Shown here: positions 19,041-40,581 of the stretch, piece after piece
How the letters are laid out: every line of letters begins with the position of its first letter
Numbering within the stretch: the first letter of the stretch is position 1
Origin: Megamonas hypermegale
GTDB lineage: Bacteria; Bacillota; Negativicutes; Selenomonadales; Selenomonadaceae
NCBI RefSeq assembly: GCF_900187035.1
Contig: NZ_LT906446.1
Location: 2,108,001 to 2,172,000, forward strand
Length of the DNA: 64,000 nt
Direction of reading: 5' to 3'
Position numbers and translations under genes: made by a program
The notes under the pieces: model-generated
The model's database searches: none
What the model saw: only the letters and a program-made list of their open reading frames with translations
Told to the model about the DNA's origin: nothing

Positions 19041-19049
19041 AAAAATTTA

Positions 19050-21674: not shown

Positions 21675-21685
21675 TAGGATTGTAT

Positions 21686-21739: not shown

Positions 21740-21784
21740 ACATAAATGTTGTTTTAGTTGTAAATAAATCTGGAGGAATTTTTT

Positions 21785-22669: not shown

Positions 22670-22676
22670 CAGATAT

Positions 22677-22722
22677 TGAAACTATAGCCTGATGAAATTT
22701 TCATTGGGCTATAGTTTTATCA
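22677..22722 (+). terminator. Terminator after the LPP20-like gene
   Basis: AAACTATAGCC pairs with GGCTATAGTTT and is followed by T-rich sequence. Confidence 0.8.
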
Positions 22723-22759
22723 AAAATAATATTTAAGCTTTTATAAAATAAAAAAATCG

Positions 22760-22796
22760 TGCCGAATTTTAGAAAAAGTAAAAGATATATAATAAG
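22760..22796 (+). promoter_or_regulatory. Island promoter-like element before a Cys-rich pseudogene
   Basis: TGCCGAATTTTAGAAAAAGT followed by AAAAGATATATAATAAG. The promoter region is intact although the gene it served is broken. Confidence 0.55.
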
Positions 22797-22830
22797 AAGA
22801 GAAAAAGAAATATAAATTAGATTAGAAATA

Positions 22831-22932
22831 AGATTGGAGAAATTATTATGGATAGGAGATTTAAGCGGTAGAGTATATTTCAGATATTATGATGATTAGT
22901 ATTATTCATAAGAAAGACAAGTTTTAAAATAA
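22831..22932 (+). pseudogene. Broken sixth copy of the Cys-rich gene
   Basis: The ribosome-site context AGATTGGAG and an ATG at 22848 remain, but most of the N-terminal half is deleted. The rest (GGCAGAG-like GTAGAG, TATTATGATGATTAG, AGAAAGACAAG) aligns with the C-terminal half of the five intact genes and carries in-frame stops and loss of the last Cys. Array 5 follows it, exactly as arrays 2 and 3 follow intact copies. Confidence 0.8.
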
Positions 22933-22944
22933 GGTAAAAATTTA

Positions 22945-23089
22945 CCAGCCGAAAAAGTAAAAAGCCTATAATATCAAGCATTAAAAAAATAGGTAGAAAA
23001 CTGAAATCGGCTGGTAAAATTTCTATGAAAGATTGAAAAATAAGGATATATAAGATATAATGAAGAAAAAGAATATTGATTTTACTGCG
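22945..23089 (+). promoter_or_regulatory. Leader of array 5
   Basis: TTTACCAGCCGA pairs with TCGGCTGGTAAA (around 22942-22952 and 23007-23018). The inner stem is GCCTAT with ATAGGT, a G-T pair in RNA. The promoter is TTGAAA (23033-23038) with TATAAT (23056-23061). Confidence 0.8.
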
Positions 23090-23504
23090 GTTAAGCATTA
23101 ACATTGTACGGTCTCGTCGCATGAAAGCCCATTTTATGATGAAGATGCTTTTGCGTTAAGCATTAACATTGTACGGTCTCGTCTAAAGTTTTTTCTATTG
23201 TTTCAAATTTAACCTCACGTTAAGCATTAACATTGTACGGTCTCGTCTCAACATAAATCGGGATAAGATAGCCAGTGTCGAAGTTAAGCATTAACATTGT
23301 ACGGTCTCGTCTCAAAAGAACCAAGTTTTCTTACTTGATTGAGTTGGTTAAGCATTAACATTGTACGGTCTCGTCACCAGCTAAAGAATATTCTTCTTCA
23401 CTCCAGCGAACCGTTAAGCATTAACATTGTACGGTCTCGTCATTGGTCGCAATCTGCTTATCCATGGGCAGTTGATTTGTTAAGCATTAACAATGTATAA
23501 TGTA
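23090..23504 (+). CRISPR. Array 5: seven repeats, six spacers
   Basis: Cores start at 23090, 23155, 23219, 23283, 23347 and 23413, with a decayed copy at 23479. The following bases are GTCG, GTCT, GTCT, GTCT, GTCA and GTCA, so GTC is constant inside the array. Spacers are unique and more GC-rich than the flanks. Periods are 64-66 bp. Confidence 0.87.
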
Positions 23505-23627
23505 ATTTAGGTTGTAAAATTATGCTAAATGTATTTATGGTGAATTTTTGATTAATATTAACAAGTGATGCTTAGCAGTAAAATGAAAGAAAGACATAAC
23601 TTAAATTAAAGTTATGTCTTTTTTTTA
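23505..23627 (+). terminator. Array 5 trailer and terminator
   Basis: Trailer element at about 23547-23575; stem AAGACATAACTT with AAGTTATGTCTT between 23590 and 23620, then T. Confidence 0.85.
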
Positions 23628-23646
23628 TAAAAATTTTTAAAAACCA

Positions 23647-23684
23647 TGCCGAATTTTGGAAAAAACAGCAGATATATATAATAA
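23647..23684 (+). promoter_or_regulatory. Island promoter-like element before the 23715 gene
   Basis: TTTTGG (23654-23659), 17 bp, TATAAT (23677-23682): the best fit of the element to a sigma-A promoter. Confidence 0.65.
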
Positions 23685-23714
23685 GATAATGATTTAAAAG
23701 AGAGGAAGATATTT

Positions 23715-24224
23715 ATGAAAAAATTATTGATGGCTTTAGCTTTAGCGATTGCAGTTTGTTTACAAAGTGGTGTTAGTATGGCTGCTACTGAAGATATGGC
23801 AAAAATAGATAGTATAGAAGTAAAAGAATTAGGATTAAATCTTATAAAAGTTGAAATGCCTTTGGAAAAAGGTTTTGAAAGTATTTATGGACAAGATTAT
23901 GCACCACTTACAATTATTGTTTACAATGATAAAAGCGATATGATAGCAATAGATGAACCTTTTGCACACAAATTGACATCTGAGAAATACGATTATGTAA
24001 AAGAACAGATGATAAAAAAACTTGGTGAGCCAGATAAAGTTGAGAATTTGGCAGATAATACAATAACTATTTGGTATACAGATGATAAAAAAAATATAGA
24101 TGTTGTTTTAAATTCAAAATCAATAACGCAGTTTTTTCGACAAGATGATGCAGATGTATTAAAAAAATATAAATTATCTACGCAAATTAAAGATTTCATA
24201 AGTTGTATTGTTAGTCAATATTAA
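23715..24224 (+). CDS. Exported protein of the YGQ/LTSE/LGEPD family
   Basis: 169 residues: signal peptide (KKLLMALALAIAVCLQSGVSMA) then one domain with FESIYGQDYAPLTI, YNDKSDMIAIDEPF, HKLTSEKYDYV, KKLGEPDKVEN, TITIWYTDD and VVLNSKS. The same domain occurs in the cytosolic-looking products at 24880 and 25967 and more distantly in those at 17929 and 21150. Function unknown. The CAP-domain gene starts 32 bp later and is probably cotranscribed. Confidence 0.7.
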   Translation: MKKLLMALALAIAVCLQSGVSMAATEDMAKIDSIEVKELGLNLIKVEMPLEKGFESIYGQDYAPLTIIVYNDKSDMIAIDEPFAHKLTSEKYDYVKEQMIKKLGEPDKVENLADNTITIWYTDDKKNIDVVLNSKSITQFFRQDDADVLKKYKLSTQIKDFISCIVSQY

Positions 24225-24256
24225 AAATAATACAATAAAAGAGAGGAATGATTTTC

Positions 24257-24760
24257 ATGAAAAAGATTTTTTTATTGATTGTTTCCTTATGTATATTCAG
24301 CTCTGTGTGTATGGCAAGTCCAGTTTATTATTATAATTATTCCAATACATCTAATTATGCTTACGAACCTAATACGGATAAAAATTATGCTCAATCGGTT
24401 GCAGCCCTTGTCAATCGGGAACGATTAAAAGCAGGGGTAAGACCATTGATATTAAATCCATATTTATGTAACAGGTCGGATATAAGAGCTAATGAATTGG
24501 CGATAATTTTTGCTCATACTCGTCCTGATGGAAGTCAGTTTTATACTGTATTAGATAGAAGAAAATTTCATTATATGACAGCTGGTGAAAATGCAGCGGC
24601 TGGTGCTAGTTCCCCTCAAGAAGTAGTAAATATTTGGATGAATTCTCCAGGACATAGACAAAATATCTTAAATCCTAAATTTCGCTATATAGGTGTAGGT
24701 TATGCTTATGTGCCTAATAGTCAATATAATAATTATTGGATACAGATATTTTCAGATTAA
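24257..24760 (+). CDS. Exported CAP-domain (SCP/PR-1-like) protein
   Basis: 167 residues with a signal peptide (KKIFLLIVSLCIFSSVCMAS) and a CAP domain: VAALVNRERLKAGVRPL, FAHTRPDGSQFYTVL, AGENAAAG, IWMNSPGHRQNIL. The conserved His and Glu residues (AHTRPDG, GENAA, PGHRQNIL) are kept. Bacterial CAP proteins are secreted or surface proteins of uncertain function. The ATG at 24257 follows GAGAGGA at 9 nt; the ATG at 24248 abuts that site. Confidence 0.88.
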   Translation: MKKIFLLIVSLCIFSSVCMASPVYYYNYSNTSNYAYEPNTDKNYAQSVAALVNRERLKAGVRPLILNPYLCNRSDIRANELAIIFAHTRPDGSQFYTVLDRRKFHYMTAGENAAAGASSPQEVVNIWMNSPGHRQNILNPKFRYIGVGYAYVPNSQYNNYWIQIFSD

Positions 24761-24797
24761 TTTGCCTCCATTTTAATTAACATAAATGTTGCTCCTA

Positions 24798-24834
24798 GGC
24801 ATAGGTTATAGTTTTATATAGCCTATGCCAAAAA
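24798..24834 (+). terminator. Hairpin after the CAP gene
   Basis: GGCATAGG and CCTATGCC with an inner CTATA pairing form the stem, but the bases after it are AAAAATT, so termination would be weak. Confidence 0.5.
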
Positions 24835-24879
24835 TTAAATATTTATTTCGTGATTGTATGTTTTGAAAGGAATTTTGTT

Positions 24880-25437
24880 ATGAAAAAAGAAATGACACCT
24901 GTAATTACATCAATGATAAAGCGTATAAAATCTGCGGGTTATGAATTTAATATATATAATCAAATCGAATCATTCTGTATAGAAAGTATGATAAACAGTA
25001 TGAAACTGGGTATTGCTAAAGAAAAATCATTAAAAAAGAGTTTTAGTGGTCAAGAGCTTATGCCTTTTGCTTTTAGGTTTTACAATTGTGATAGTGAGAT
25101 GATAGTAATTCAGTTGCCATTTAAACATAAATTGATAGATGAACAATTTGAAAGTATAGAAAAAAATATTGGTAAACCCGATAAAATAAAAAAAAATAAG
25201 GAAGATACTATGGCGATTTGGTATTTTGTTGTTGATGAAAAAGAAAGGGCGTATATGCTAAATTCAAGTGCTTTTATTATTGTTGAAGTAGATAGTGTTA
25301 TAAAAATTTTAGATTCATTTAATTTGCCAATGGAAATAGAGGATTTTGTAAATGTAGTTATTTCTTTAGATAAAGAAACACCAGAAGATTACGAAGATGA
25401 AAGGATTGCTCAAAACTTTGAATATATACTTTGCTAA
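24880..25437 (+). CDS. YGQ/LTSE-family protein, truncated
   Basis: 185 residues and no signal peptide. It holds one divergent copy of the family domain (SFSGQELMPFAFRFYN, HKLIDEQFESIEK, IGKPDKIKK, MAIWYF, YMLNSS). The stop at 25435 is followed, in the same frame, by a decayed second copy of the domain (25441-25810), so the ancestor was a two-domain protein like the 365-residue product at 25967. The ATG at 24880 follows GAAAGGA at 8 nt; the frame from 24850 includes that site. Confidence 0.68.
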   Translation: MKKEMTPVITSMIKRIKSAGYEFNIYNQIESFCIESMINSMKLGIAKEKSLKKSFSGQELMPFAFRFYNCDSEMIVIQLPFKHKLIDEQFESIEKNIGKPDKIKKNKEDTMAIWYFVVDEKERAYMLNSSAFIIVEVDSVIKILDSFNLPMEIEDFVNVVISLDKETPEDYEDERIAQNFEYILC

Positions 25438-25440
25438 AAG

Positions 25441-25810
25441 TCTCCGAAAGATTTTGGCTCTTTATATGATTAAGAGGCTGTACCGTATACATTAGCAATT
25501 AATGTGGAGGGCAGTGGAATGATAGCAATGGATATATCTTTTGTAAAAGAATTGACATCAGAACAGTAGGAGAGCGTAAAAAAAGAAATATCTCCCAAAA
25601 GGTGAACCTAATGAAATAAAGAATTTTAAAGAGGAAACAGTGATTGTTTGGTATTTTGAAGATGAAAAAAGATTATATGTTTTAAATTCAAAATCTGTTA
25701 CAATATTTATAAAAAATGATGTTTTAGATGTTTTAGATGTATATAATATATCCATATTAATTATTGATTTTATAAATATTATTACTAATATTCCTAAAAG
25801 TATAATTTAA
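25441..25810 (+). pseudogene. Decayed second domain of the 24880 gene
   Basis: In the frame of the upstream gene one reads KDFGSLYD, stop (25471-25473), EAVPYTLAINVEG, MIAMDISFVKELTSEQ, stop (25567-25569). After a frameshift it continues GEPNEIKNFKEE, VIVWYFEDEK, YVLNSKS and ends at 25808-25810. These match the C-terminal domain of the 25967 product block by block. Three stops and one frameshift show it is broken. Confidence 0.85.
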
Positions 25811-25831
25811 TATTTTATATCTTTGATATTA

Positions 25832-25868
25832 AGCATGAATTATATAAATATGTATTTCATGCTTAGTA
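25832..25868 (+). terminator. Terminator before the 25967 gene
   Basis: TTAAGCATGAA pairs with TTCATGCTTAG, followed by TATTTTTA. Confidence 0.65.
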
Positions 25869-25966
25869 TTTTTATAAGATTTTTAAATTTTATGTTGTGT
25901 TTTGATTTTTTAGGAATATGTAATGAGAATTTATGATTATAGTTTTATTTTGAAAGGATTTTTATT

Positions 25967-27064
25967 ATGACAAAAGAAACAACAACTAAAATTGCAGCTC
26001 TTTTTGATTTTATTGAATATTGTGATTATAAAAATTATCCATGTAATGATTTTAAATTATATTATATGAGAAATTTTTTTAAAGATGAATTTGAAATATA
26101 TCTTATGAAGAAAAAGATATCATCCCAAACAGTCTTTGGTTATCCTATTTTGCCTTATGTTTTTAGCGTTGAATGCTGTTCATGTGGTGGTTCAATGGCA
26201 GAAAAGTATATTTTTACTGAAGAATTGACACCTGAACAATTTGAAAATTTAAAAGAAGAATTATCTCAAAAATATGGTAAATATGATGAGATAAAAAATT
26301 TTACAAACGGTGTTACAATAGTTTGGCGTGTAGAGTCTGATTTATATGCGTTAAACTCTAAAGTATTTACTAAAATTTTATATAAATATAATATGGAATG
26401 TATCTTTGAGGCTTTAAAATATTTTAGAAAATACGATTTAGTAATAGATATTATTGATTTAATAAAGCTTATTATAAATTTAGATAAAGAAAAATATGAA
26501 ACAACATATGACTATGGATATATATATGATTGTGCTCCTTATGGTGAAGACGAGCTTACTGAAGAAGAAAAACGCCAATTTATAGAAGATTTAGAGGCAT
26601 ACCGTAGAGGCGAATATGAAGCAGAACTAGAGTTTATAGAACTTAGGGATAAAACAAAGAAATTATTTGAACATAAGGATATATATATTAGGGAAATAGA
26701 AACATCAGAAAAATTTAGTTCGCTATATGGCCAAAAGATATCAGAGTATACACATACGGTTAAGACTTATATCAATGGATTGATAGCAATAAACATGCCT
26801 TTTATAAAGGAACTAACATCAGAACAGTATGAAAATGTAAAAAAAGAAATGTTAAAAGAACATGGAGAGCCTGATGAAATAATAGATTTTAAAGAAGGTA
26901 CAGTAATAATATGGTATTCTCAAGATATGAAAGATATATCATATGCTTTAAATCCAAAATCGATTATTATATTTATAGAAGATTATGTTTTATATGCTTT
27001 AGATAGATATCATATTTCGATATCAAATGCTGAATTTGTAAATTTTGTTGCTAATAAATCTTAA
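25967..27064 (+). CDS. Two-domain protein of the YGQ/LTSE/LGEPD family
   Basis: 365 residues, no signal peptide. Two copies of the family domain: residues about 60-170 (EELTPEQFENLKEELSQ, VTIVWRV, YALNSK) and about 245-365 (FSSLYGQ, MPFIKELTSEQYENV, HGEPDEIIDF, VIIWYSQDM, YALNPKS), joined by an acidic helical linker (ELTEEEKRQFIEDLEAYRRG). The first copy has lost the YGQ motif and carries a CCSCGG cluster. Function unknown. The neighbour upstream is the decayed version of the same architecture. Confidence 0.7.
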   Translation: MTKETTTKIAALFDFIEYCDYKNYPCNDFKLYYMRNFFKDEFEIYLMKKKISSQTVFGYPILPYVFSVECCSCGGSMAEKYIFTEELTPEQFENLKEELSQKYGKYDEIKNFTNGVTIVWRVESDLYALNSKVFTKILYKYNMECIFEALKYFRKYDLVIDIIDLIKLIINLDKEKYETTYDYGYIYDCAPYGEDELTEEEKRQFIEDLEAYRRGEYEAELEFIELRDKTKKLFEHKDIYIREIETSEKFSSLYGQKISEYTHTVKTYINGLIAINMPFIKELTSEQYENVKKEMLKEHGEPDEIIDFKEGTVIIWYSQDMKDISYALNPKSIIIFIEDYVLYALDRYHISISNAEFVNFVANKS

Positions 27065-27091
27065 AATATAAGTTAATATTTTTAAAAATTA

Positions 27092-27145
27092 TAATTAAGC
27101 ATGAATCGTATAATATATATATGTATGGTTCATGCTTAATGTTTT
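27092..27145 (+). terminator. Terminator after the two-domain gene
   Basis: TTAAGCATGAA pairs with TTCATGCTTAA around a 30-base AT-rich loop, followed by TGTTTTT. Confidence 0.65.
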
Positions 27146-27209
27146 TAAAGGAATTTTATTATAAAAAAAGAATTTATTATTATATTAAATATGATTAGGA
27201 GTGTTTGTT

Positions 27210-27863
27210 ATGGCAAAAAGACCAGTTTATATTGTTTCAAATACTAAACCGTATTTTAAGTGTAAAATGACAGATTTTGAATATTTTAGTGGATTTTCTG
27301 TAAAACAGAAACAAAAAAATATTAGAAGTTTACATGATGCTTTCAATGTTTTAAATCCTAGTAGTAGAATATTAGAAATTTCTACTAAGTCGGAAGACTC
27401 ATTAGGCATTGCATTGAGTGCGTTTAATTTAATGGTAAAAAATGAAAAGGGAGAAGATTTATTTTCAGTAGAAGCAGCATTTCAATCGAGTAAAGTTTTT
27501 GAAAAAGGTGGACCATATACAGATTTATTATATGTTTCTTCAAAAGAAGCTAAAAAAGATAAAAGATTAAAAACCAGTGGCTCTATAATAGGTTTTAATT
27601 TTCAGGGAGAAGAATTTAAGTCACGACCAAAAACTTTTTTTTATAATTGGTTGTATATAAACGCTTTAAATTCTAATGAAGAATTAGCAGAGGCAATCAT
27701 GAATTTTGATGCGTTTACAGATATAGAATTTAATCCGCAAAAATCCTTAAATTGTCAAGCAGAAGCAGTAGCACTATTTGTATCATTAAAGAAGAATAAT
27801 TTATTACAAAAGGTGTTAAAAAATAAAGATGATTTTATGCAAACAGTATATTTTTTTGATTAA
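27210..27863 (+). CDS. NADAR-type antitoxin (DarT1-associated family, DUF6977)
   Basis: 217 residues. Family blocks are clear: GFSVKQKQKNIRSLHDAF, ILEISTKSEDSLGIALSAFN, SVEAAFQSSKVFEKGGPYTD, AKKDKRLKTSGSIIGF, FYNWLYINALN, AFTDIEFNPQKSLNCQAEA. In DarTG1 systems such NADAR proteins reverse DNA ADP-ribosylation by the toxin DarT1. No DarT-like ADP-ribosyltransferase is present on either side, so this copy is an orphan or has a new partner, the gene 23 bp downstream. The ATG at 27210 follows AGGAG; a GTG at 27201 overlaps that site. Confidence 0.85.
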   Translation: MAKRPVYIVSNTKPYFKCKMTDFEYFSGFSVKQKQKNIRSLHDAFNVLNPSSRILEISTKSEDSLGIALSAFNLMVKNEKGEDLFSVEAAFQSSKVFEKGGPYTDLLYVSSKEAKKDKRLKTSGSIIGFNFQGEEFKSRPKTFFYNWLYINALNSNEELAEAIMNFDAFTDIEFNPQKSLNCQAEAVALFVSLKKNNLLQKVLKNKDDFMQTVYFFD

Positions 27864-27886
27864 TTATTATCTATTGGAGGTTTTTT

Positions 27887-29122
27887 ATGTATATAAATCT
27901 GGAGAATGTAGATAAAATAAAAAAAGCAAATATAGAATTAAAAGGTATAACTATTATATTAACATCAAAATATGCACCTAAAAATTTGATTGGTAATGTG
28001 ATTTTTAGTAGTGATGTATTATTAGGTCGTTATGTAAATAAATTATATGAACATAGAGCCTTTGAGATTGTTGAGATGTGTGCTCAAAATACTAGTATAG
28101 AGTCTTTATCGAATATAAATAAGTTATATTTATTTAATAAAATAGATAGAGAACTTAAAAAAAAGGCTCGTTTATATAATACATTGGAAGAAGAAATCAG
28201 AGAGATTTTAGATATATTTGAAACTGTTTTAAAACAAAAATCTTCGATAGCAAAACAAATAGATATTGAAACTTATTTAGGCAAGATAAACCAGTTATTA
28301 CATAATAAATTACAGCAAAGTTTCATAGAAATAGTTAAAACAAAGATAAAAACAGAATTTTTGCCAAAGGTTTCTTTTGAAGCTAGTGATATAAAGATAG
28401 AAATTATTGAGGATAATGAGGTAAAAAAGTTTACACAAAAAAATTATCAATGTACAGAGTTAAAAGTCTTAAACAAAAGCAATGCAGTAATGAACATGGA
28501 GTCGTTGGGAATTTGTGATATTTTAGCAGATGGTTATAGAAAAGATTTTAATTATAGTGAGAAAAAATTGTATAAAAGAGTATTAGAAGTTTGTTTTGTA
28601 TCGAATGGAAATAGTGTTTCCTTGATAAATGATGTATCAGATAGAGACAATTTAGAAGTTTATGGTATTGATAAAAATGTGATTAATAATTTTTATGATA
28701 TTTTAGATAAAGTAGTAGATAGTATTAAAAAAACTTCTGATAATAAGTATTATCTTGTTTATAAATACTTAAATAAAAAAATTAATTTAACAGATGCTCC
28801 TAGAGATTTACGATGCTTTGTGGATTTTAAAATCTTATTAGAACGATATTTCTTTTGTGGCCATAAATGGGCAAAACCTAAAATAATTGTTTTTAAAGAG
28901 CCTGAAAGTTATTTAAATGATACTTGGCAGGATTTATATGCTGAATTTGTTGTTTTATTGCAAAAATATATAATTCCTAATTTGATTATAAGAACAGAAA
29001 ATAAAGATTTAATGGCTAAAATAAAACATTACATCAAAATTCATGATAGTATAGCAAAGGTTAACGTATATGAAGCCGTGAAAAATAATGATGGCTTTAA
29101 TCTAAATAAGTTAATTGATTAA
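27887..29122 (+). CDS. AAA/ABC-type (OLD-like) protein with all ATPase motifs lost
   Basis: 411 residues. The layout follows small ABC-like AAA ATPases of defence loci: N-terminal strand ENVDKIKKANIELKGITIIL, where a Walker A normally follows but here reads TSKYAPKNLIG; a long helical insertion; a signature region degraded to LTDAPRDLRCF; a Walker B-like PKIIVFKEPESYLN with Lys in place of the Asp; and then WQDLYAEFVVLLQKYIIPNLIIRT, as in EPE-HLHP-type proteins. It should not hydrolyse ATP. It is in an operon with the NADAR gene. The intact 1.2-kb frame argues that it is a functional pseudo-enzyme. The homology is inferred by eye. Confidence 0.65.
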   Translation: MYINLENVDKIKKANIELKGITIILTSKYAPKNLIGNVIFSSDVLLGRYVNKLYEHRAFEIVEMCAQNTSIESLSNINKLYLFNKIDRELKKKARLYNTLEEEIREILDIFETVLKQKSSIAKQIDIETYLGKINQLLHNKLQQSFIEIVKTKIKTEFLPKVSFEASDIKIEIIEDNEVKKFTQKNYQCTELKVLNKSNAVMNMESLGICDILADGYRKDFNYSEKKLYKRVLEVCFVSNGNSVSLINDVSDRDNLEVYGIDKNVINNFYDILDKVVDSIKKTSDNKYYLVYKYLNKKINLTDAPRDLRCFVDFKILLERYFFCGHKWAKPKIIVFKEPESYLNDTWQDLYAEFVVLLQKYIIPNLIIRTENKDLMAKIKHYIKIHDSIAKVNVYEAVKNNDGFNLNKLID

Positions 29123-29130
29123 TAAATAAA

Positions 29131-29206
29131 AATTACCAGCTAAAATGGATAAAAGCTTATAGATAGAGAACTTTTAAAAATTAATATTAGCTGGTAATTT
29201 TTTTAT
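29131..29206 (+). terminator. Leader hairpin of array 6 doubling as a terminator
   Basis: AAAATTACCAGCTAA pairs perfectly with TTAGCTGGTAATTTT and is followed by a T run. The stem bases differ from the other leaders on both sides (CCAGCTAA with TTAGCTGG instead of CCAGCCGA with TCGGCTGG). Confidence 0.85.
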
Positions 29207-29268
29207 AAACCTTGAAAAATAAGGCTTTATAGGTTATAATGAAGAAAAAGAATATTGATTTTACTGCG
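29207..29268 (+). promoter_or_regulatory. Promoter of array 6
   Basis: TTGAAA (29212-29217), 17 bp, TATAAT (29235-29240). The spacer region has diverged from the other leaders while both boxes are intact. Only the block GAAGAAAAAGAATATTG is otherwise kept before the repeat. Confidence 0.82.
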
Positions 29269-29493
29269 GTTAAGCATTAACATTGTACGGTCTCTTGTTT
29301 CAAATACAAATAATCCTAATTTTACATTACAATTGTTAAGCATTAACATTGTACGGTCTCTTGTTAATACAAGACTTAACATTTAAAAGCGTCGGTAACG
29401 GGTTAAGCATTAACATTGTACGGTCTCTCATTACGTAGAATGAATTACGTTTTTTTCTCGCTTTTCGGTTAAGCCTTAATATTGTACGGTCTC
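29269..29493 (+). CRISPR. Array 6: four repeats, three spacers
   Basis: Cores start at 29269, 29335, 29402 and 29468; the last has two changes. The bases after the cores are TTGTT, TTGTT, TCATT and TCTT. No fifth, decayed repeat is recognisable before the trailer. Confidence 0.85.
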
Positions 29494-29652
29494 TCTTGAG
29501 TCCATTTATTGATATGATGTAATAGGCTGAATATGTTATTTGTTTTTTAGTGATGTTATTTTATTGATTAATATTAACAAGTGATGCTTAATTGCAAAGA
29601 GAATAAGAAAAGACATAACTTTAATATATTTTAAGGTTATGTCTTTTTTTAT
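29494..29652 (+). terminator. Array 6 trailer and terminator
   Basis: Most of the trailer has diverged, but TTGATTAATATTAACAAG plus TGATGCTTA (29563-29589) is intact. The terminator pairs AAAAGACATAAC with GTTATGTCTTTT. Confidence 0.85.
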
Positions 29653-30780: not shown

Positions 30781-32709
30781 ATGGGAAATACAAATGACTC
30801 TAAAGAAAAAGTTAAAGCTAGATATAAGAAGAGTAAAGAATATATTGAGATAAATCGAGATATAGAAGAAGAAAAAGATAAAAAAGAAGATAAAAAAGAT
30901 ATAAATAAACTAAAAAATGAAATAGAAGGATATGTGAAAACATATTTACAATATTTGTTTGAAGGCAATCTTAAGAGAAAAGAAGAAAACAATATTAACT
31001 TAAAGATAACTAGAAAATTAATGTTATTGGATTATAAGTATGATGCTTTTGCTAAAGTTAGAAAAAAAGCTTTAAATTTGCTGCCAAATCAAGATAAAAA
31101 TATTTATTTAAGTAATGTCGATATAGTACAATTTAAAAAAGTTACAAAAGATAGTTTAGATAACATTGTAATAGAATATAAAAAAGATACTACTTTATTA
31201 TCATTTTTTACGATATTTGAAAAAGAATATTATTTAGGTCTAAAATTATTAGCAGAAACTAAAATAAAAGAAGTAAGAGAAATAAGAAATCAAATAGAAG
31301 ATAGCGTAAGAGAATATGTACAAGGTACAGCTGATGAAATTTTAAGTGATACACGTAAAACTTATTTAGTAATGAAAATTGTTAAGAATTTAATATTTTT
31401 AGAAAAAGAATATGATTTTTTTGCTAAGCAACGATTAGGTGCATTAAAAATTTTAAATTATTATAATAAGAAATTAACTTTTTATGAAGCAAAATCAGAT
31501 GGATATGTTTCATTGGTAAAGAAAATTTTGGATAGTAAAGTAAAAGAGTATAAGGATACAGGAGAAATATATTCATTCATAATTGAATTTAGAAAAAAAT
31601 ACTATAATGAAATGAGAGAGGCAGTTGTAAATTTATTAAATGAAGAGAATGTACAATATAAAATGCGTAAAAGTTTTGTAAAAAAAGAAATACGAATTTT
31701 ATATAAAGAATTATTTAAAAATGATAAAGCGTTCTTGCGAAAGGTAACAAAACAGCTTAATGACAAGAAAAGTTTTAATTATCATACAATAAAATATTTC
31801 TTTGTAAAAAACATTTTATTATATATAGAATTGCCATCTGAAAATGAAGAAGTAAATAATAATGTATATGATTATATAAGGAAGGAAGAAATACAAAAAG
31901 GAACGCCTAAACAGGAGATAGAATATCTTATAAAAACAAGAAGTAAAGAAGATTTGGAACAATTAAAGAAAAATGTAAGTGATATATTAAACAGATTTTA
32001 TTCAGTAGATCGCGGTGGAGATAATAATAAATACATTTATAAAGCTATGAAAAATAAAAATGCTTTAGAAGAACAATTGAAAAATATGAAAGGGATTGAT
32101 ATAAACAAATTAAAAGATATAGAATTGCAAATGGAAGCAATAGAGACTTGTTTATATAAAATACAAAAAGTATTTGAAGAAAGTCTTATTGTAGATATTT
32201 TTGAAATGAATGAAGATGGAAAAGAGTATTCCATATTAGAGCATAGGGCATTAAAGCAACCATCTTTTGAATATGCTAAAGAAAAGTTTTTTTCTTATAT
32301 AGATATTTATGAAAATATAAAAGATAAATTATCTGAATCATCACGAACCTTTTTTAAATATGTATTTGGATATATTATATTAGAATTTAAAAGAAGAGGT
32401 CATGATGACGTAGAATTATTCGATTATATAAAAGATGAAACTAATTTTATAGAATTTTATAATAAAAATATTCCTGATACAGAAAATCCTAATTATATAG
32501 AAAATGCTACAGATAAAAAATATGATTTACCAAATGAAAAAATAGTACATAAAGCAATAGCTTTTATAACGGATTATTTAGATATAGCGTACGATACTGG
32601 TAGAAAGCATAAAAATGTAGTATTAAAAGAAATGTATAAAACAATAAAATCAGAAAATACTGGTTTAAGATATTTTAGACGTTTTTTAGAGGAAGATTTT
32701 TTACAGTAA
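30781..32709 (+). CDS. Large helical protein with an internal duplication, unknown function
   Basis: 642 residues, very Lys/Glu-rich, no membrane segment. The start is highly charged and probably coiled coil (residues 1-60). Two similar blocks follow: about 60-165 (LMLLDYKYDAFAKVRKKALN, then VIEYKKDTTLLSFFTIFEKEYYL) and about 170-290 (LIFLEKEYDFFAKQRLGALK, then VKEYKDTGEIYSFIIEFRKKYYN). The C-terminal half is helical with another charged coil near 430-470. I see no R-x4-6-H pair in a convincing HEPN context, no PD-ExK and no Walker motif. It follows the CARF-only gene and precedes the Cas10 operon, so it may be a CRISPR ancillary effector. Confidence 0.7.
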   Translation: MGNTNDSKEKVKARYKKSKEYIEINRDIEEEKDKKEDKKDINKLKNEIEGYVKTYLQYLFEGNLKRKEENNINLKITRKLMLLDYKYDAFAKVRKKALNLLPNQDKNIYLSNVDIVQFKKVTKDSLDNIVIEYKKDTTLLSFFTIFEKEYYLGLKLLAETKIKEVREIRNQIEDSVREYVQGTADEILSDTRKTYLVMKIVKNLIFLEKEYDFFAKQRLGALKILNYYNKKLTFYEAKSDGYVSLVKKILDSKVKEYKDTGEIYSFIIEFRKKYYNEMREAVVNLLNEENVQYKMRKSFVKKEIRILYKELFKNDKAFLRKVTKQLNDKKSFNYHTIKYFFVKNILLYIELPSENEEVNNNVYDYIRKEEIQKGTPKQEIEYLIKTRSKEDLEQLKKNVSDILNRFYSVDRGGDNNKYIYKAMKNKNALEEQLKNMKGIDINKLKDIELQMEAIETCLYKIQKVFEESLIVDIFEMNEDGKEYSILEHRALKQPSFEYAKEKFFSYIDIYENIKDKLSESSRTFFKYVFGYIILEFKRRGHDDVELFDYIKDETNFIEFYNKNIPDTENPNYIENATDKKYDLPNEKIVHKAIAFITDYLDIAYDTGRKHKNVVLKEMYKTIKSENTGLRYFRRFLEEDFLQ

Positions 32710-32715: not shown

Positions 32716-32748
32716 ATGGAGTGCCTTTTTGGGCACTCCGGATTTTTT
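32716..32748 (+). terminator. Terminator between the ancillary pair and the Cas10 operon
   Basis: GGAGTGCC and GGCACTCC form the stem, followed by six T after GGA. Confidence 0.85.
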
Positions 32749-32797
32749 ATATATTATAGGATAAGAAATAATTATCATATTGATAGGAGTAATGTGT

Positions 32798-34447
32798 ATG
32801 TTAAATTCAGTAGGTGCAATTTTATTAGATACACGTTCTATACAGAAATATGTTTTTTCTTGTAATAGATTAAAAACTAATATTGGAGCTTCTTTTCTTG
32901 TAGATAGTATTTTTAGCGATTTGATGGTAAATAAAATACTACCTAGTTTAAATTTAAAAATGCCTGAATTTTCATGGAATGAAGTAGATAATGTTCAAAT
33001 GCTTGAAGATGATAGTATTGAATGTGAAGTTGCTTATATTGGCGGCGGAAATATGATTATATTGGTAAGAAAACAAGATGAAGATGTTATTGAACTTTGT
33101 AAAAAAATTGTAGGTAGTTGGAGTAAAGAAATATTAATAAAAGCACCAGGATTGAAGACAGGTGCAGCAATTGGTATGTTAGATATAGATAGTGAACATT
33201 TTCAAAAATCGTTGGGAATTTTATATAAGCAATTAAAAGATAATCAAAATACTATTTTGCCACAGGTTGATGTGCCATATGTAGGTTTTACTTTAGAGTG
33301 TGATTACAGTGGAAAAACAGCGGAATATCTTAGAGGCAGGGTAGAGGATAGTATTATTAATGAATTTGATAATAAAATGGTATCAGCGGAAATTGTGGCA
33401 AAATCAAGTGCGTATAATGTAGCTACAGAAAAATTAAAAGAAGAGTATAAGGACATTTTAGGAAATAGATTTGATTTTGTTACAAAATTTGATAATTTGG
33501 GCTATAAAGATAATGAAAGTTATATAAGTGTTGTTCATATAGATGGAAACAATATGGGAATAAAGTTTGCTTCGTGTAAGAACATGCAGGAACGTAAAAA
33601 ATTATCACTAAGAACAGCTCAGATTGTAAAAAGAGGCTTTTATAAATTATTAAAGTCTGTTGTAATAGATTTTAAAGAAGGAATATATGATAAAAGCCTT
33701 AATATAAATAAAATGAAAAATAGGTATTTGCCAATAAGACCAATAATAATAGGTGGCGATGACATTACTTTTGTTTGTCCTGGTAGATTAGGTTTAGAAT
33801 ATGCAAAAAGATTTATTCAATTTGTTAGTAAAGAACAATTATTAGATGAAAAATTGTATTCTAATGCACAAAGTTATGCAGGAAAGATATTTAATAATCA
33901 AAATATAAAAGTTAATAATAATATGAGTTGTTGTGCTGGAGTAGCGATTGTACCAGCTAAATATCCATTTTATAGAGCGTATGAATTAGCAGAGCAACTT
34001 TGTGGTTCGGCTAAAAAGAAATCACGTGAAGATGATGAGAGTTTTGTTGATTTTGCTATATTGCATGGAGATATGTCACCAACATTAGACCAATTGTGTG
34101 TACAACAATATGAAGCACCAGAAGGTTATTTACATTATGGACCGTATTGTATAACACAAGAGCAAAATGATAAGAGCAATATAAATGATTTATTTTCTTT
34201 GATAGAAAAGATAAAAAAGGTGCCTAATAATAAAATAAAAGATTTGCGTAATGTTTTAAATGAGGATAATCATAGTATTGTTAGATTTTTAGAAAATTGT
34301 CCAGAGGTAGAAAATATATTAAAAGATGAATTGCAAAAAGAAGATGTTGGGGCAAGTGATTTATGGCAGTATATGAAAAATGAAAAGATATTAAAGACAC
34401 GATATGTTGATGCAATAGAATTAATAGACTTTTCTTTAAAAGTTTGA
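32798..34447 (+). CDS. cas10: Cas10 of a type III-D system, without HD domain
   Basis: 549 residues. The N-terminus starts directly in the first palm region (VGAILLDTRSIQKYVFSCN) with a degenerate GGGNM near residue 84. The second palm holds HIDGNNMG (Asp249) and the cyclase motif GGDD at residues 319-322 (IIIGGDDITF). The GGDD site makes cyclic oligoadenylates from ATP when target RNA is bound. The HD nuclease domain of classical Cas10 is absent, so single-strand DNA cleavage by this subunit is not expected. I chose the ATG at 32798, 8 nt after AGGAG, over the ATG at 32792. It heads the effector operon. Confidence 0.9.
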   Translation: MLNSVGAILLDTRSIQKYVFSCNRLKTNIGASFLVDSIFSDLMVNKILPSLNLKMPEFSWNEVDNVQMLEDDSIECEVAYIGGGNMIILVRKQDEDVIELCKKIVGSWSKEILIKAPGLKTGAAIGMLDIDSEHFQKSLGILYKQLKDNQNTILPQVDVPYVGFTLECDYSGKTAEYLRGRVEDSIINEFDNKMVSAEIVAKSSAYNVATEKLKEEYKDILGNRFDFVTKFDNLGYKDNESYISVVHIDGNNMGIKFASCKNMQERKKLSLRTAQIVKRGFYKLLKSVVIDFKEGIYDKSLNINKMKNRYLPIRPIIIGGDDITFVCPGRLGLEYAKRFIQFVSKEQLLDEKLYSNAQSYAGKIFNNQNIKVNNNMSCCAGVAIVPAKYPFYRAYELAEQLCGSAKKKSREDDESFVDFAILHGDMSPTLDQLCVQQYEAPEGYLHYGPYCITQEQNDKSNINDLFSLIEKIKKVPNNKIKDLRNVLNEDNHSIVRFLENCPEVENILKDELQKEDVGASDLWQYMKNEKILKTRYVDAIELIDFSLKV

Positions 34448-34466
34448 TGGTAAATAGGTGATAGAT

Positions 34467-35108
34467 ATGGAAAAATTTAAAATAAAAATAGTAGCAAAAT
34501 CATCCTTACAATTATCTACAAATAAATCAGATATAACAGTTGATACAGAAGTAGTGCATGACCAGTATGGAATGCCATATTTTCCTGCTAAAAGATTTAA
34601 AGGCTTATTATATGAAAGTGCTTTAGAGATGGCAGAGATTAGCCAAGAAAAATGGATAACAATTAAAGATATAAATGATTTGTTTGGTTTAGGAAATACT
34701 GAATCTAAAATACGTATGGAAAATTTTTATTTACCAAATTACAAACAGATGTGTAGAGATTGGCAGTATTTGAATAGCCAATATAAAGGTATATTCACCA
34801 AACAAAGTGTATTAGAGTTATATACAGATATAAGGTTTCAAACGGCAATAGATAGAGAAACAGGTACTGCTAAAGCTACCAGTTTATATAATATGCAAGT
34901 TATTAATGATGGAACAACCTTTGAAGGAGAAATAGAACTCGTAGAAGATACAGAAAAAAATTTATTAATCTTAATTTTAGCATTGAAAAATTTGCGGTTT
35001 GTGGGTGCAAAGCGTAATCGTGGTTATGGTGAAATTACTTGTATTTGGGATAGTAATAAAGATAGATATAATAAAGTTTTTGATGAGTTTAAAAATGGAA
35101 TAATATAG
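34467..35108 (+). CDS. Cas7 (Csm3-like) RAMP subunit
   Basis: 213 residues. RAMP features: an N-terminal ferredoxin-like strand, DITVDTEVVHDQYG with Asp26 in the place of the Csm3 target-RNA-cleaving Asp, the RNA-binding segment YFPAKRFKGLLYES, FQTAIDRETGTAKATSLYN, and the Gly-rich loop RFVGAKRNRGYGEI. It forms part of the crRNA-binding backbone. It starts 19 bp after cas10; the ATG at 34467 follows AGGTGAT, while the GTG at 34458 is inside that site. Confidence 0.88.
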   Translation: MEKFKIKIVAKSSLQLSTNKSDITVDTEVVHDQYGMPYFPAKRFKGLLYESALEMAEISQEKWITIKDINDLFGLGNTESKIRMENFYLPNYKQMCRDWQYLNSQYKGIFTKQSVLELYTDIRFQTAIDRETGTAKATSLYNMQVINDGTTFEGEIELVEDTEKNLLILILALKNLRFVGAKRNRGYGEITCIWDSNKDRYNKVFDEFKNGII

Positions 35109-35125: not shown

Positions 35126-36679
35126 GTGAAAAAGATAGAGTATATTATAGAAACATTAGCTCCAGTAAGTTTGGCAGAAAAAAATAATGATAATACATTA
35201 TATGTTACAAAAAAATATATTCCAGGTTCTATAATTAGAGGAATGTTGGCTGGAAAATTTATAAAGTATAAAAATTTAATAAATGCACATGAAGATGAAG
35301 AGTTTTTTAATATATTTTTATCTGGAAAGGTACGTTTTTTATCGGCTTATCCAGTAGGAAAAAATTTAAAGTTTCTGAAAAAAGGATTTTCGCCGATGAA
35401 TATACCATTATCTTTGGTATGTAGTAAAGATGGAAAAAGTATAAAAGATATTTCTTTGAATAAACAAATAACTCCAGGATATAAAAAAATGAATGGTTTT
35501 ATATTGAAGGATAATAATGAAATTTGTAAGGTTGATGTAAATACGCAGGTTGAATTACATATGGCGCGTAATAGTGATAAATTGCGTCTTATTGGCAGTA
35601 ACAAAGATGGAAGAATTTTTAATTATGAATATATAGAACCTAATCAATTTTTTAAAGGATATATGATAATAGATGATGATGTAGTTGATTGTATTGAAGA
35701 TTTCTTGGATAGCATTGATTTAACAAATATTCATATAGGTCGTTCAAAAAATATACAGTATGGTAAATGCTCCTGCAAAATGGGAAAAAGTTTAGATTGT
35801 GATATTTTTAAATATAATTTAAGCAATAAAAATGTATATTTACAAGCAATAACACCATATATTCCTATAAAAGAATGGCAATCTGTTGATGAAGTAGTAA
35901 GTAGTCTTTTATCTGATATAGAAAAACAGTTAAAAAAAGTTGGATTTAATGTAAATATAAAAAAAGAAAATATATCTATTTTATCTACTTGTGAAGAGAT
36001 TAGTGGTTATGTTAATGTTTGGCAGTCTATGAGAGAAAGAAAAGTTGCCATTTCTGCGGGTTCATTAATAGAATTTATTATAGATAAAATGGATACGGAT
36101 ATTTTAAAAAACTTAAGTGAAATCTTGTATTCTGGATTGGGCTGCAGATATGAAGAAGGTTTTGGTCAATTTAGAATATGGCAATCGATGGATGATATAA
36201 AAATAGTAGATTATCCGACTGAAGTAATAAGTAGAGATAATATAAGTGATGAAGTTCGAAAAAATGCTAGAGAAATAATTCATAGAAGAATTATATTAGA
36301 AGTTAGAAAAAAAGCTATAATGGATGCAGAAAAAATAAATCCATTAAAAAGCAAAAATGTTTTAAATAGAATAGAACGAATACTTTTGAGTAATTATAAG
36401 GAAGAAACTATCAAACAAGAAATAAGTGAATTTAAATCGATAGCAAAAGATAATTTACGTAAAATAAGATTAAATGGAATAACTATGTATGATTTTTTAT
36501 TTAAAGATTTAAAAATGCCATATGATGATATAAAATGGGAAAAATATTTAGAATTAGATGGTAACAAGATAGAATTATTAAAAAATGATTTAGGATACAA
36601 TGTTTTTGACATTGATAAGAATATTTTATTTAAAGAATATTGGTTATGGTTTGTAAAACATTTAAAAAAGAGAAATTAG
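35126..36679 (+). CDS. csx10: Csx10 (Cas5-like RAMP) with a long helical C-terminus
   Basis: 517 residues. The first 200 residues carry Csx10 features: YIIETLAPVSL, KYIPGSIIRGMLAGKF, KVRFLSAYPVG, and IHIGRSKNIQYGKC as the Gly-rich loop. A second RAMP-like part ends with LGCRYEEGFGQFRIW near residue 355. Residues about 372-517 are strongly helical and charged. No separate small subunit (Cas11) gene exists in the operon, so this tail might supply that role. Csx10 caps the crRNA 5' handle in type III-D complexes. Translation starts at GTG 35126 after AAGGAGGT; an overlapping ATG at 35124 is followed at once by a stop. Confidence 0.87.
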   Translation: MKKIEYIIETLAPVSLAEKNNDNTLYVTKKYIPGSIIRGMLAGKFIKYKNLINAHEDEEFFNIFLSGKVRFLSAYPVGKNLKFLKKGFSPMNIPLSLVCSKDGKSIKDISLNKQITPGYKKMNGFILKDNNEICKVDVNTQVELHMARNSDKLRLIGSNKDGRIFNYEYIEPNQFFKGYMIIDDDVVDCIEDFLDSIDLTNIHIGRSKNIQYGKCSCKMGKSLDCDIFKYNLSNKNVYLQAITPYIPIKEWQSVDEVVSSLLSDIEKQLKKVGFNVNIKKENISILSTCEEISGYVNVWQSMRERKVAISAGSLIEFIIDKMDTDILKNLSEILYSGLGCRYEEGFGQFRIWQSMDDIKIVDYPTEVISRDNISDEVRKNAREIIHRRIILEVRKKAIMDAEKINPLKSKNVLNRIERILLSNYKEETIKQEISEFKSIAKDNLRKIRLNGITMYDFLFKDLKMPYDDIKWEKYLELDGNKIELLKNDLGYNVFDIDKNILFKEYWLWFVKHLKKRN

Positions 36680-36706
36680 TTGTATAAATTTATAGGAGAG
36701 ATGGTA

Positions 36707-38137
36707 ATGGATAATGAAGCAAAAATAATAAAAAAGATAGTTTTTCCAAATGTTCCTATAAAAGTAAAATCACCGTTACGAATATCTACTGGAAAAAATG
36801 ATGGCATCATAGATATGTTGATTTTGAAAGATAATCATGGACAAGCATTTATACCAGGAACTTCAATAATAGGTGTATTGAGAAATTATATATATGATAT
36901 CTATGGAGAAAAGATAGAAGATGTTATTTTTGGTAATGTGAAAAATAATAGCGAAAGTCAAAGTTTAATTAGAGTTGGTGATGTAAAATTAGAAAATGTA
37001 AAAATTATTCATAGAGATGGAGTAGCTATTGATGATATCACCAATGTAAGTAAGAACAAAGCTAAATATGATTTTGAAATGATTGATAGAGGTGCAGAAG
37101 GATTATTAAATATAGAAATTACTGTACGAAAGAAATTTGAAAATATTGATATTGACGAAGTGGCAAAAACAATAGCATATATATTGGATAATGGCATGAG
37201 CATTGGGGCATTGACGACAAAAGGTTATGGAAAAATACAAACAAAGAAAAAACCTACTCCATATTATATTTTTGATTTTAATAATGAGGCAGATTCATGG
37301 GCTTGGTTAGATTATCTAGATGGTAAGATTAACAAGAAACCTGTAAAATATGAAAACGTTAGAACAAATATATCTAATGAATTTACAATGAGGATAGGTT
37401 TGTCGTTAAATAGTGCTATTATGATAGCAGATACTAATGTTCAAGAAGATTTAACGAAAAAAAGTAGCATAAAAATAAGAGCAGTACAAATGAAAAATGG
37501 AGACGATTATGTTATTCCTGGTACTAGTATAAAAGGAGTTATACGAAATAGAGCTATTAATATATTGAGATATTTATCGAATTATAATGAAGAGAAAGTA
37601 ATATCGTTTATAGATGATTTAATGGGACATGGAAAGAAAGTTGATAAGGATGGCAATAATAAACTTCTACGAAGTCGACTATATGTAAATGAAATTTATC
37701 TTAGAAAGAATAATTTTGTCAGTGCAAAACAACCACGAACTAGAATAGATAGCTTTACAGGAGGAGTTTTTTATGGAAATTTGTTTGGTGATGAACCTAT
37801 TTGGCAAATAGACAAGTCTAAAACAATGATTTCTATTAACTTGAGAATAAGAAAGTGTACTGAGGCTGAAGCTGGTCTTATGTTATTAATTCTAAAGGAT
37901 TTATGGCTAGGAAATTTAGCAATTGGTGGTGGAAAATCTATTGGTAGAGGCACTTTTAAAGGAAATAATTGTTTAATAAAATATCAAGGAAATACCTTTA
38001 GAATAGAAAGAGTAAATGATGATGATGATAAAAATAGAAATAAGATAAAAATTGAAAAAGATGGTTGTGAAGAAGACGTTCAAGATGTTTTAGAACGGTA
38101 TGTTAAAGTTTTGTGTGGTGAATTCTATGGAAAATAG
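36707..38137 (+). CDS. Double Cas7 (tandem Csm3-like) fusion
   Basis: 476 residues with two RAMP modules. Module 1: LRISTGKNDGIIDMLI, AFIPGTSIIGVLRNYI, IHRDGVAIDDIT, Gly-rich loop GALTTKGYGKIQ. Module 2: YVIPGTSIKGVIRNRA, QPRTRIDSFTGG, Gly-rich loop NLAIGGGKSIGRGTF. Fused Cas7 units are typical of type III-D complexes; the acidic residues of module 1 are candidates for target-RNA cleavage. The ATG at 36707 lies 6 nt after AGGAGAG. The end overlaps the csx19 start by 11 bp. Confidence 0.88.
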   Translation: MDNEAKIIKKIVFPNVPIKVKSPLRISTGKNDGIIDMLILKDNHGQAFIPGTSIIGVLRNYIYDIYGEKIEDVIFGNVKNNSESQSLIRVGDVKLENVKIIHRDGVAIDDITNVSKNKAKYDFEMIDRGAEGLLNIEITVRKKFENIDIDEVAKTIAYILDNGMSIGALTTKGYGKIQTKKKPTPYYIFDFNNEADSWAWLDYLDGKINKKPVKYENVRTNISNEFTMRIGLSLNSAIMIADTNVQEDLTKKSSIKIRAVQMKNGDDYVIPGTSIKGVIRNRAINILRYLSNYNEEKVISFIDDLMGHGKKVDKDGNNKLLRSRLYVNEIYLRKNNFVSAKQPRTRIDSFTGGVFYGNLFGDEPIWQIDKSKTMISINLRIRKCTEAEAGLMLLILKDLWLGNLAIGGGKSIGRGTFKGNNCLIKYQGNTFRIERVNDDDDKNRNKIKIEKDGCEEDVQDVLERYVKVLCGEFYGK

Positions 38138-38702
38138 TTTTTTTGATAAAGATAATTGTCTACGATATGAAAATAGATATTCAATAAAAAAAGAATATGT
38201 GTATGATAAAAAAATATCTTTAAATGATATTTTAGAAAAAGTAGCTGTTAATGATTATAAAGTATTAATACAAAATGTGAATGAAATGAAATTTGGTTAT
38301 TATAGAGATAAACATTTTATATTTAATGATGGTAGTGATGTTGTTCCTAAATATTTAATACAAATGAGACTATTTAATGAAATAGAAGAAATATTGGTTT
38401 TAAGTAATAAAGAGGAATATTATTTAAGAGTTATAAAAGATGAAATGAACGGAGAAAGTAAACTTATAGAAACTGTTGATAGTATATCGGTTTTATTTGG
38501 AAAATTAGATAAAGATGAAAATTTATTAGATGGTTTTGTAGAATTATATGATGCAGGAAGAAAGATAAGAAAAGTAATTCCTTCTAGTATAAAAAGTGAT
38601 TATTATGCATTAACTACGCGAAGTTATATCGAATATAATAAGAAAACTGGTCAAGCTGGATATGGTTATTATCGTTACGTAGATATAAAACCTGAAAAAT
38701 AA
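38127..38702 (+). CDS. csx19: Csx19-like subunit (TIGR03984-type)
   Basis: 191 residues. Blocks PKYLIQMRLFNEIEEILVL, EEYYLRVIKDE, a VDSISVLFGKLD segment, GFVELYDAGRKI and a C-terminal LTTRSYIEYNKKTGQAGYG resemble the small, poorly conserved Csx19 family that occurs only in type III-D loci. In known III-D complexes Csx19 is a minor structural subunit. The ATG at 38127 overlaps the previous gene in a different frame; only a weak GTGTGGTG ribosome site is present, so translation is probably coupled. Confidence 0.72.
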   Translation: MENSFFDKDNCLRYENRYSIKKEYVYDKKISLNDILEKVAVNDYKVLIQNVNEMKFGYYRDKHFIFNDGSDVVPKYLIQMRLFNEIEEILVLSNKEEYYLRVIKDEMNGESKLIETVDSISVLFGKLDKDENLLDGFVELYDAGRKIRKVIPSSIKSDYYALTTRSYIEYNKKTGQAGYGYYRYVDIKPEK

Positions 38703-38725
38703 TGATTACAGAAATCATAAGTTAA

Positions 38726-38797
38726 GAGAGGTGAAAAAGCAGCTATTTATTCTGTAAATATAAAATAATAAATTATATTTAAATAGTTGTTTCTATA
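38726..38797 (+). promoter_or_regulatory. Ribosome site joined to its start codon by a 13-bp hairpin
   Basis: GAGAGGTGA (38726-38734) is 62 nt from the next start codon, too far to work directly. Between them AAGCAGCTATTTA (38737-38749) pairs with TAAATAGTTGTTT (38780-38792), with two G-U pairs in RNA. When folded, two bases before and four after the stem separate the site from the ATG at 38797, which is normal spacing. Confidence 0.6.
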
Positions 38798-40581
38798 TGG
38801 GAAAAAATATTTCTGATTTAAAAGAACAAGCTAGAGCACCATATAATTTTATACAATTAAATGATGTAATTGTTCCATCAAAAATAAATGAATATGTAGA
38901 AAAAGAGCAGTTAAAAAATAACAAATTAAATTATTGGAATAAAAATGATAAAAAAATATTAAATGAAGCAGGTTATAAAGCTTTCATAAAAGATAGTGCA
39001 AAATATAGTGGTTATTTTGATGTAGATATAGAAAATATAACACCTTTATATTTTGGTGGAGAAAATGGAGCTTTAATAGATGGAATACATAATGCCATTC
39101 CAGGAAGTAGTTTAAGAGGATGTTTAAAAAATATTTTTAGAATAATAACTAATTCTGCCATGAGATGTAATGAGAATGGAAATTTTAGTGATAGGTTATT
39201 TTTTTGGAGAAGTATTTCGGAAGATGATTTATTTACAGAAGAGTATCTAAATGAAATGTCTTTACAAGGTAAAAACAGGCCTAGAGCTCAAGCAGGTTTT
39301 TTGATTGAATTCATGGGAAAAAAATATGTTTGTCCTGCTAAGTTTAAAGTAATTAAAAATACAACAAACATAAAAAAAGTAGAAAAGAGTCCTCGTATAA
39401 TATGGAGAAATGACTGTGTAGATGTTTTTTCAGGGAATATAGATGAAAAGGATAAATTATATTTTTATAGAATAACAGAACCTGTATGGGATAAAAGAAT
39501 AGCTATATCGGACAGATTTATGAATTTTTATAAATTAGATCAGAATAGAAATAGTAAAAATTTATTTAAATTTGAGGGAAATAGCTTCTCTAATGTACCT
39601 AGAGGAATAAAGTTATTGGAGTATGCACTAAAGAAAAGATATAAAGTTATTAATCCATGTTTTTATTGTATTGAAAATGGAAAAGTATGTCATTTAGGTT
39701 CTAGTCCATATTATAGGATACCTTACAAGAAAACAGTAGATATGCATGTTCCTTCGGAATTAAAGATACCTGTAATAGATTTTACAGATGCTGTTTTTGG
39801 AAATAAGGAATATTGGGGAAGTAGAATTTATGTTGATGATTGTTATTTAAAAGATGAAGGGAAAAAAGAGATATTTTATAAAGGTTTTAATTTGAGTGTA
39901 AAAAGTCCTAATCCAGCAGCATATCAATTTTATTTAAATACAGATGATGATGGTACTAGTGTGCAAAATTGGAATGGTGATACAAATATTAGAGGGTATA
40001 AAATGTATTGGCATAAAAAAATGGATTGGAAAGGAATACAAAAAGATGATGTAAATAAGAGATACAATGGAGTTTTAATAAAAAAACCTTTTAGAGAAAG
40101 ATGTCATTTTAAAGGAAGAGTACGTTTTGAGAATTTGGATGAAGTAGAATTGGGGGCATTGGTATATTTATTTAAATTAGGCGAAGAAAATTGTTGTTAT
40201 AAATTAGGTATGGGAAAATCGGTTGGATTAGGTAGTGTAAAAATTTTAGCTGATTTATATTTGAGAGATGATAAATATTATACAAGGCTTTTTGATGGAT
40301 GTGAAAAATTTAAGGAATATAGTTTAATAGAAGATACACAAAAATATGTAGAAGAATTTAATCAATATATGTACAAATATTTAATGAGTCATTCTAAAAA
40401 GTCGTTGGATTTGTATCAAAAAAGAATGAATGATTTAAGAATAATAATGGGAATTGAAAATATCGATAATAGTAAATGGTGTAAAAAAATTTCGTATATG
40501 GACATAAATAATGATATTGATAAGGAGATATTGAGAAAAAAAATACCATTACCAACAATAGCTGAGATAGCACAAAAATAA
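38797..40581 (+). CDS. TIGR03986-family CRISPR-associated RAMP (Cas7-like)
   Basis: 594 residues. Diagnostic segments: ARAPYNFIQLND at the start, AIPGSSLRGCLKNIFRI near residues 103-119, SPNPAAYQFYLNTDDDG, NIRGYKMYWHKK, and LGALVYLF with YKLGMGKSVGLGSVKI as the C-terminal Gly-rich loop. This is the large Cas7-with-insertion subunit of type III-D complexes. The family N-terminus fits the ATG at 38797 and a stop lies in frame 34 bp upstream, so no earlier start is possible. It is the last gene of the operon, followed by a terminator. Confidence 0.88.
   Translation: MGKNISDLKEQARAPYNFIQLNDVIVPSKINEYVEKEQLKNNKLNYWNKNDKKILNEAGYKAFIKDSAKYSGYFDVDIENITPLYFGGENGALIDGIHNAIPGSSLRGCLKNIFRIITNSAMRCNENGNFSDRLFFWRSISEDDLFTEEYLNEMSLQGKNRPRAQAGFLIEFMGKKYVCPAKFKVIKNTTNIKKVEKSPRIIWRNDCVDVFSGNIDEKDKLYFYRITEPVWDKRIAISDRFMNFYKLDQNRNSKNLFKFEGNSFSNVPRGIKLLEYALKKRYKVINPCFYCIENGKVCHLGSSPYYRIPYKKTVDMHVPSELKIPVIDFTDAVFGNKEYWGSRIYVDDCYLKDEGKKEIFYKGFNLSVKSPNPAAYQFYLNTDDDGTSVQNWNGDTNIRGYKMYWHKKMDWKGIQKDDVNKRYNGVLIKKPFRERCHFKGRVRFENLDEVELGALVYLFKLGEENCCYKLGMGKSVGLGSVKILADLYLRDDKYYTRLFDGCEKFKEYSLIEDTQKYVEEFNQYMYKYLMSHSKKSLDLYQKRMNDLRIIMGIENIDNSKWCKKISYMDINNDIDKEILRKKIPLPTIAEIAQK

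Follow-up and report, generated by a model that had tools for sequence, protein, structure and literature searches.

How is translation of the final gene of a type III-D CRISPR operon initiated when no ribosome site lies beside its start codon? The question is posed by a gene junction in the 64-kb window, the whole stretch of DNA analysed here (31% GC, from a 2.23-Mb genome), where a strong Shine-Dalgarno (SD) sequence and the only usable ATG stand far apart with a predicted hairpin between them. The original prediction for this locus was that folding of the hairpin brings the two together and thereby switches translation on, possibly under the control of temperature or of a protein.

The type III-D operon and its last gene

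The gene in question (38797 to 40581, positive strand) encodes a 594-aa, Cas7-insertion-like RAMP protein of the TIGR03986 family, identified by NCBIfam TIGR03986 (2e-73) and PADLOC Cas7_IIId (4.3e-85). It also matches PDB 8s9t_E (5.5e-5), a 795-aa chain named TIGR03986 family RAMP in a structure that appears to belong to the Synechocystis III-Dv system. Upstream on the same strand are genes encoding Cas10 (32780 to 34447; PADLOC Cas10d, 3.9e-109), a Csm3-like Cas7 (34458 to 35108; profile matches and PADLOC), Csx10, or Cas5_IIId (35126 to 36679; TIGR02674, 1.4e-23, and PADLOC), a double Cas7 assigned to Cas7_IIId (36680 to 38137; profile matches and PADLOC) and Csx19 (38100 to 38702; TIGR03984, 4.1e-28), the last of which by eye probably starts at ATG 38127. 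Cas10, Csx10, Csx19 and Cas7-type subunits thus occur together, as expected of a type III-D effector operon, with the TIGR03986-family gene at its end. The 594-codon frame is intact, suggesting that this gene has probably been kept in use.

Other features surround the operon. A 642-aa protein encoded at 30781 to 32709, between a CARF protein and Cas10, has no NCBIfam, Pfam or PADLOC match and is possibly a type III accessory protein of a new sort. A terminator-like hairpin recognised by eye at 32718 to 32748, GGAGTGCC...GGCACTCC followed by GGATTTTTT, lies between this gene and cas10 and suggests that transcription of the effector genes is separate or attenuated. Six short CRISPR-like arrays with the repeat GTTAAGCATTAACATTGTACGGTCTC and a period of mostly 63 to 69 are located from 14130 to 29513; near-identical leader-like sequences precede most of them, and other dispersed repeats are interleaved with them, including one of 300 nt in five copies and one of 46 nt in twelve, beginning AAAACCGTGCCGAATTTTGG. 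The first bases 3′ of the array repeat are often common within one array and differ between arrays.

Geometry of the junction

The stop codon of csx19 is followed, 94 nt downstream, by ATG 38797. Between them on the positive strand is the SD sequence GAGAGGTGA (38726 to 38734), whose 7-nt core GAGGTGA (38728 to 38734) is complementary to the 16S tail GGATCACCTCCTTT, a sequence with five occurrences in this genome. The end of this strong SD is 62 nt from the ATG, and the region 3 to 13 nt upstream of the ATG contains no SD match of at least 3 nt. Stop codons in frame with the last gene at 38755 and 38761 block any start upstream of ATG 38797, leaving it as the only plausible one, and no in-frame ATG, GTG or TTG intervenes from 38764 onward.

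The gap itself is predicted to fold into a stem of 13 contiguous base pairs, the 5′ arm at 38737 to 38749 and the 3′ arm at 38780 to 38792, which includes two G-U pairs (38739-38790 and 38742-38787) and closes an A/U-rich loop of 30 nt (38750 to 38779). An inner A/U helix of 7 bp is predicted within the loop (38757 to 38763 with 38773 to 38779). Two nucleotides on the 5′ side of the stem and four on the 3′ side are left unpaired, 6 nt in total, so that the gap is filled as originally described, from the missing near site and the in-frame stop to the stem, loop and six free bases. A distant strong SD with none nearer is the arrangement of a split, or accommodated, ribosome site, and the hairpin is predicted to restore a working spacing. 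If the arms were once a perfect inverted repeat, both departures from it preserve pairing on the mRNA strand only, as G-U pairs, but two such changes are too few to be given much weight.

Rarity of the arrangement

When the gap was dinucleotide-shuffled 20,000 times, stems of 13 bp or more that bridge it with a slack of at most 6 nt arose at a frequency of 0.0003, and a 13-bp stem anywhere in the gap at 0.0045. An equally low minimum free energy was reached in 0.0033 of 3,000 gap shuffles; the fold of the wider 131-nt region is just mildly better than expected from shuffling (z −1.63; 16 of 200 shuffled sequences folded equally well). Along the 64 kb, such a bridge is present in 3 of 9,134 segments of 62 nt, the hairpin under study included.

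The window and a further 400 kb of the same genome (464 kb altogether) were surveyed for comparison, giving 336 ORFs of 150 aa or more. Only two lack an SD match of at least 3 nt: the last cas gene and an ORF (L053:18029) that runs antisense to a 16S rRNA gene, with the 16S tail at the corresponding place, which leaves the last cas gene as the only real gene without an SD match. Its bridging stem is also the longest among 206 pairs of a far SD and a start. A strong SD lies far upstream of 140 starts, for which shuffling predicts 0.09 bridges of at least 13 bp and one is observed, that of the last cas gene; five of these starts have no SD of their own of at least 4 nt, and the four others have bridges of 3 to 6 bp. 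The arrangement of SD, hairpin and start is real and unlikely to be due to chance.

The same junction in relatives

The last cas protein was found in 52 of 189 genomes of the family, the window's own counted; the relatives are distant, at identities of approximately 27 to 37%. The single other genome of the genus lacks the gene, and a wider search found no copy of the protein in viral contigs and no closer relative in genome contigs or plasmids. From 56 loci examined, removal of the window's own, a duplicate contig (L039 appears to be L011, and the two were counted once) and L069, which has no csx19 match, left 53 distinct relative junctions; one family genome present as a short fragment (G099) was left out of the comparison.

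All 53 junctions between csx19 and the last gene are tight, with gaps of −17 to +18 nt and an adjacent SD of at least 4 nt. The script placed 51 of them in this class and the other two agree on re-reading: in the apparent exception L062 (gap 25), GGAG precedes an ATG that lies 1 nt past the csx19 stop, and in L076 (gap 87), a draft contig with a frame break, GGTGAT precedes a TTG that lies 1 nt past the csx19 stop in a different frame. The L076 break, at approximately 1560 to 1660 near the N-terminus of the Cas7-insertion gene, reflects either sequencing error or decay. The starts of the relatives were picked with a preference for an SD, which favours finding an adjacent SD there and affects the tight gap much less. 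One relative, L038, carries AGAGAGGTGAGACAAATG, in which the identical SD word GAGAGGTGA is located 5 nt before its ATG. The tight junctions and this shared word are most simply explained by an SD that is older than the 62 nt following it; the hairpin seems to have been inserted in this lineage alone, parting that SD from its start.

Orthologous operons that have lost the stem had been proposed as evidence against the bridge. The stem is absent in 53 of 53 relatives, which speaks against it if taken literally, yet it is absent because the insert is missing altogether and these operons have no gap to bridge; given how distant the relatives are, its absence neither confirms nor refutes a function here.

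As to what was inserted, a repeat element or MITE was rejected, as the genome holds no second copy (the best other DNA match covers 29 nt at 86%, inside csx10) and the 24-nt pattern of SD plus arm is unique in the genome at up to 3 mismatches. A CRISPR repeat-spacer unit was also rejected, the repeat of the arrays at 14.1 to 29.5 kb being by eye unlike the insert.

Initiation of the last gene

A far SD, no near SD, a sole start, a fitting stem above chance and an ancestral SD in relatives together make bridging by the hairpin the best-supported reading. It is plausible, and on balance the last cas gene probably uses an accommodated site of this kind. An ancestral SD would have stood a few nucleotides before the start, as it does in relatives, until, in this lineage, approximately 55 to 60 nt came to separate the two. 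The added RNA would fold into the 13-bp hairpin, pointing away from the 30S subunit, and would set the SD (38728 to 38734) and ATG 38797 approximately 6 nt apart again, so that initiation would be more or less constitutive. We propose that the insertion was tolerated because the RNA folds, and we infer that the RNA adopts this fold in vivo, that translation requires it and that the insertion arrived as one unit.

Structure predictions over longer contexts count against bridging. The AUG has a predicted unpaired probability of 0.60 to 0.81 in short contexts and of 0.00 to 0.12 in longer ones, where it is predicted to pair with downstream coding sequence; in the −117 to +64 context the value is 0.004, the 5% quantile of 162 genes being 0.024. 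The SD is predicted to be 0.42 to 0.73 free across contexts, and 42 to 54% free in the longer ones. It also counts against bridging that A/U-rich starts lacking an SD may be translated anyway. The sequence preceding ATG 38797 is A/U-rich and could recruit the 30S subunit directly, by S1 or as an unstructured start, in which case the far SD would be vestigial and the hairpin would play no part in initiation. Genes with a weak SD do exist in this genome, as 17 of the 336 surveyed ORFs have an SD match below 4 nt. However, the last cas gene is alone among real genes in having no match at all, a relic SD ought to decay and GAGGTGA is intact, and the 24 nt upstream of the ATG lie mostly inside predicted helices, the opposite of an unstructured start. 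We regard such SD-independent initiation as unlikely, if still worth weighing.

Ribosomes could instead arrive from upstream, scanning on from the end of csx19 at 38702, or from an 8-codon frame (GTG 38731 to TAA 38755) that overlaps the SD, shares the phase of the last gene and ends 39 nt before its ATG, to re-initiate at ATG 38797. The two cas genes are co-directional and overlap or abut in nearly all relatives, as coupling would favour, but here the csx19 stop is 94 nt away, a hairpin predicted to be stable lies in the scanning path, by eye only a weak TAAG precedes GTG 38731, and re-initiation would have to take place with no near SD, all of which makes coupling improbable.

Intercistronic hairpins are common, and the insert may serve mRNA stability or processing, or may be neutral, with the last gene poorly translated; the lack of a second genomic copy and of an Rfam match excludes only a known repeat or RNA. 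Against this, the hairpin sits exactly between SD and ATG with a spacing that fits, the gene is intact and there is no terminator-like site, and we rate this explanation a shade lower than coupling. A terminator in the gap was itself rejected, none being found at the junction, as was a leaderless mRNA from an internal promoter: the promoter scan gave 11 sites in 1.2 kb against 10.1 expected, and none is placed to serve ATG 38797.

A role of the hairpin as a switch is not supported, and only the bridging half of the original claim is retained, on the geometry, the chance estimates and the SD of the relatives. Predicted mean pairing of the stem is about flat, at 0.73 to 0.85 over 25 to 60 °C and 0.77 at 65 °C, and a temperature-controlled stoichiometry switch, or RNA thermometer, was rejected on this prediction. 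Rfam covariance models searched against 38500 to 39000 matched nothing at E ≤ 1, nor was there any sign of a protein site, and control by a protein is unsupported. The joint proposition that a chromosomal gene depends on a loop-out hairpin of approximately 60 nt and that the III-D complex or a partner also binds this hairpin, tying the supply of the Cas7-insertion subunit to assembly, is very improbable.

Comparison with known systems

In the Synechocystis III-Dv operon, according to PMC11026444, csx19 is followed by cas7-insertion and each subunit assembles as one copy. The gene order from csx19 to Cas7-insertion is the same in the present operon, whose last protein matches PDB 8s9t_E; the III-Dv system differs in having a fused cas7-cas5-cas11, whereas the Csm3-like Cas7 and Csx10 are separate genes here.

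For the bridge itself, the precedents recognised in the literature are two phage T4 genes and the E. coli polyamine modulon, a count that does not prove absence of others in print. In the modulon (oppA, rmf, cpxR and rpoE), the SD is far from the AUG or hidden and a stem is proposed to bring the two nearer, according to PMC4191411. The stem there is bulged (GC-rich in oppA) and stabilised by spermidine, unlike the unbulged, A/U-rich 13 bp of the present hairpin; the spermidine effect belongs to the E. coli mRNAs.

The closest likeness is to T4 genes 38 and 25; the original prediction had mentioned similar hairpins in a few phage genes. According to PMC3014915, a hairpin reduces the spacing between SD and AUG from 22 to 5 nt in gene 38 and from 27 to 11 nt in gene 25. 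Our bridge measure, run on the T4 record, recovers both (for gene 38, a stem of 6 in a gap of 22, leaving a residual of 6; for gene 25, a stem of 7 in a gap of 27, leaving a residual of 9) with values near the published ones, which counts for bridging at the last cas gene. In both T4 genes the SD is too far from the AUG and an intervening hairpin shortens the spacing, and gene 25, like the last cas gene, has its bridge at an intercistronic junction and in a restricted lineage. As published, the T4 bridges extend over 22 to 27 nt, under half of the present gap, which counts against bridging. Here a predicted fold would take 62 nt to 6 with a longer, A/U-rich stem and a 30-nt loop, on a bacterial chromosome and in a CRISPR operon. 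If this reading is correct, gene-finding programs may wrongly take such genes to have no SD, the junction would show how an operon may survive an insertion into a ribosome site, and the bridged ribosome site would extend from a few genes of phage T4 to a bacterial immunity operon, across a gap over twice the length of those in T4.
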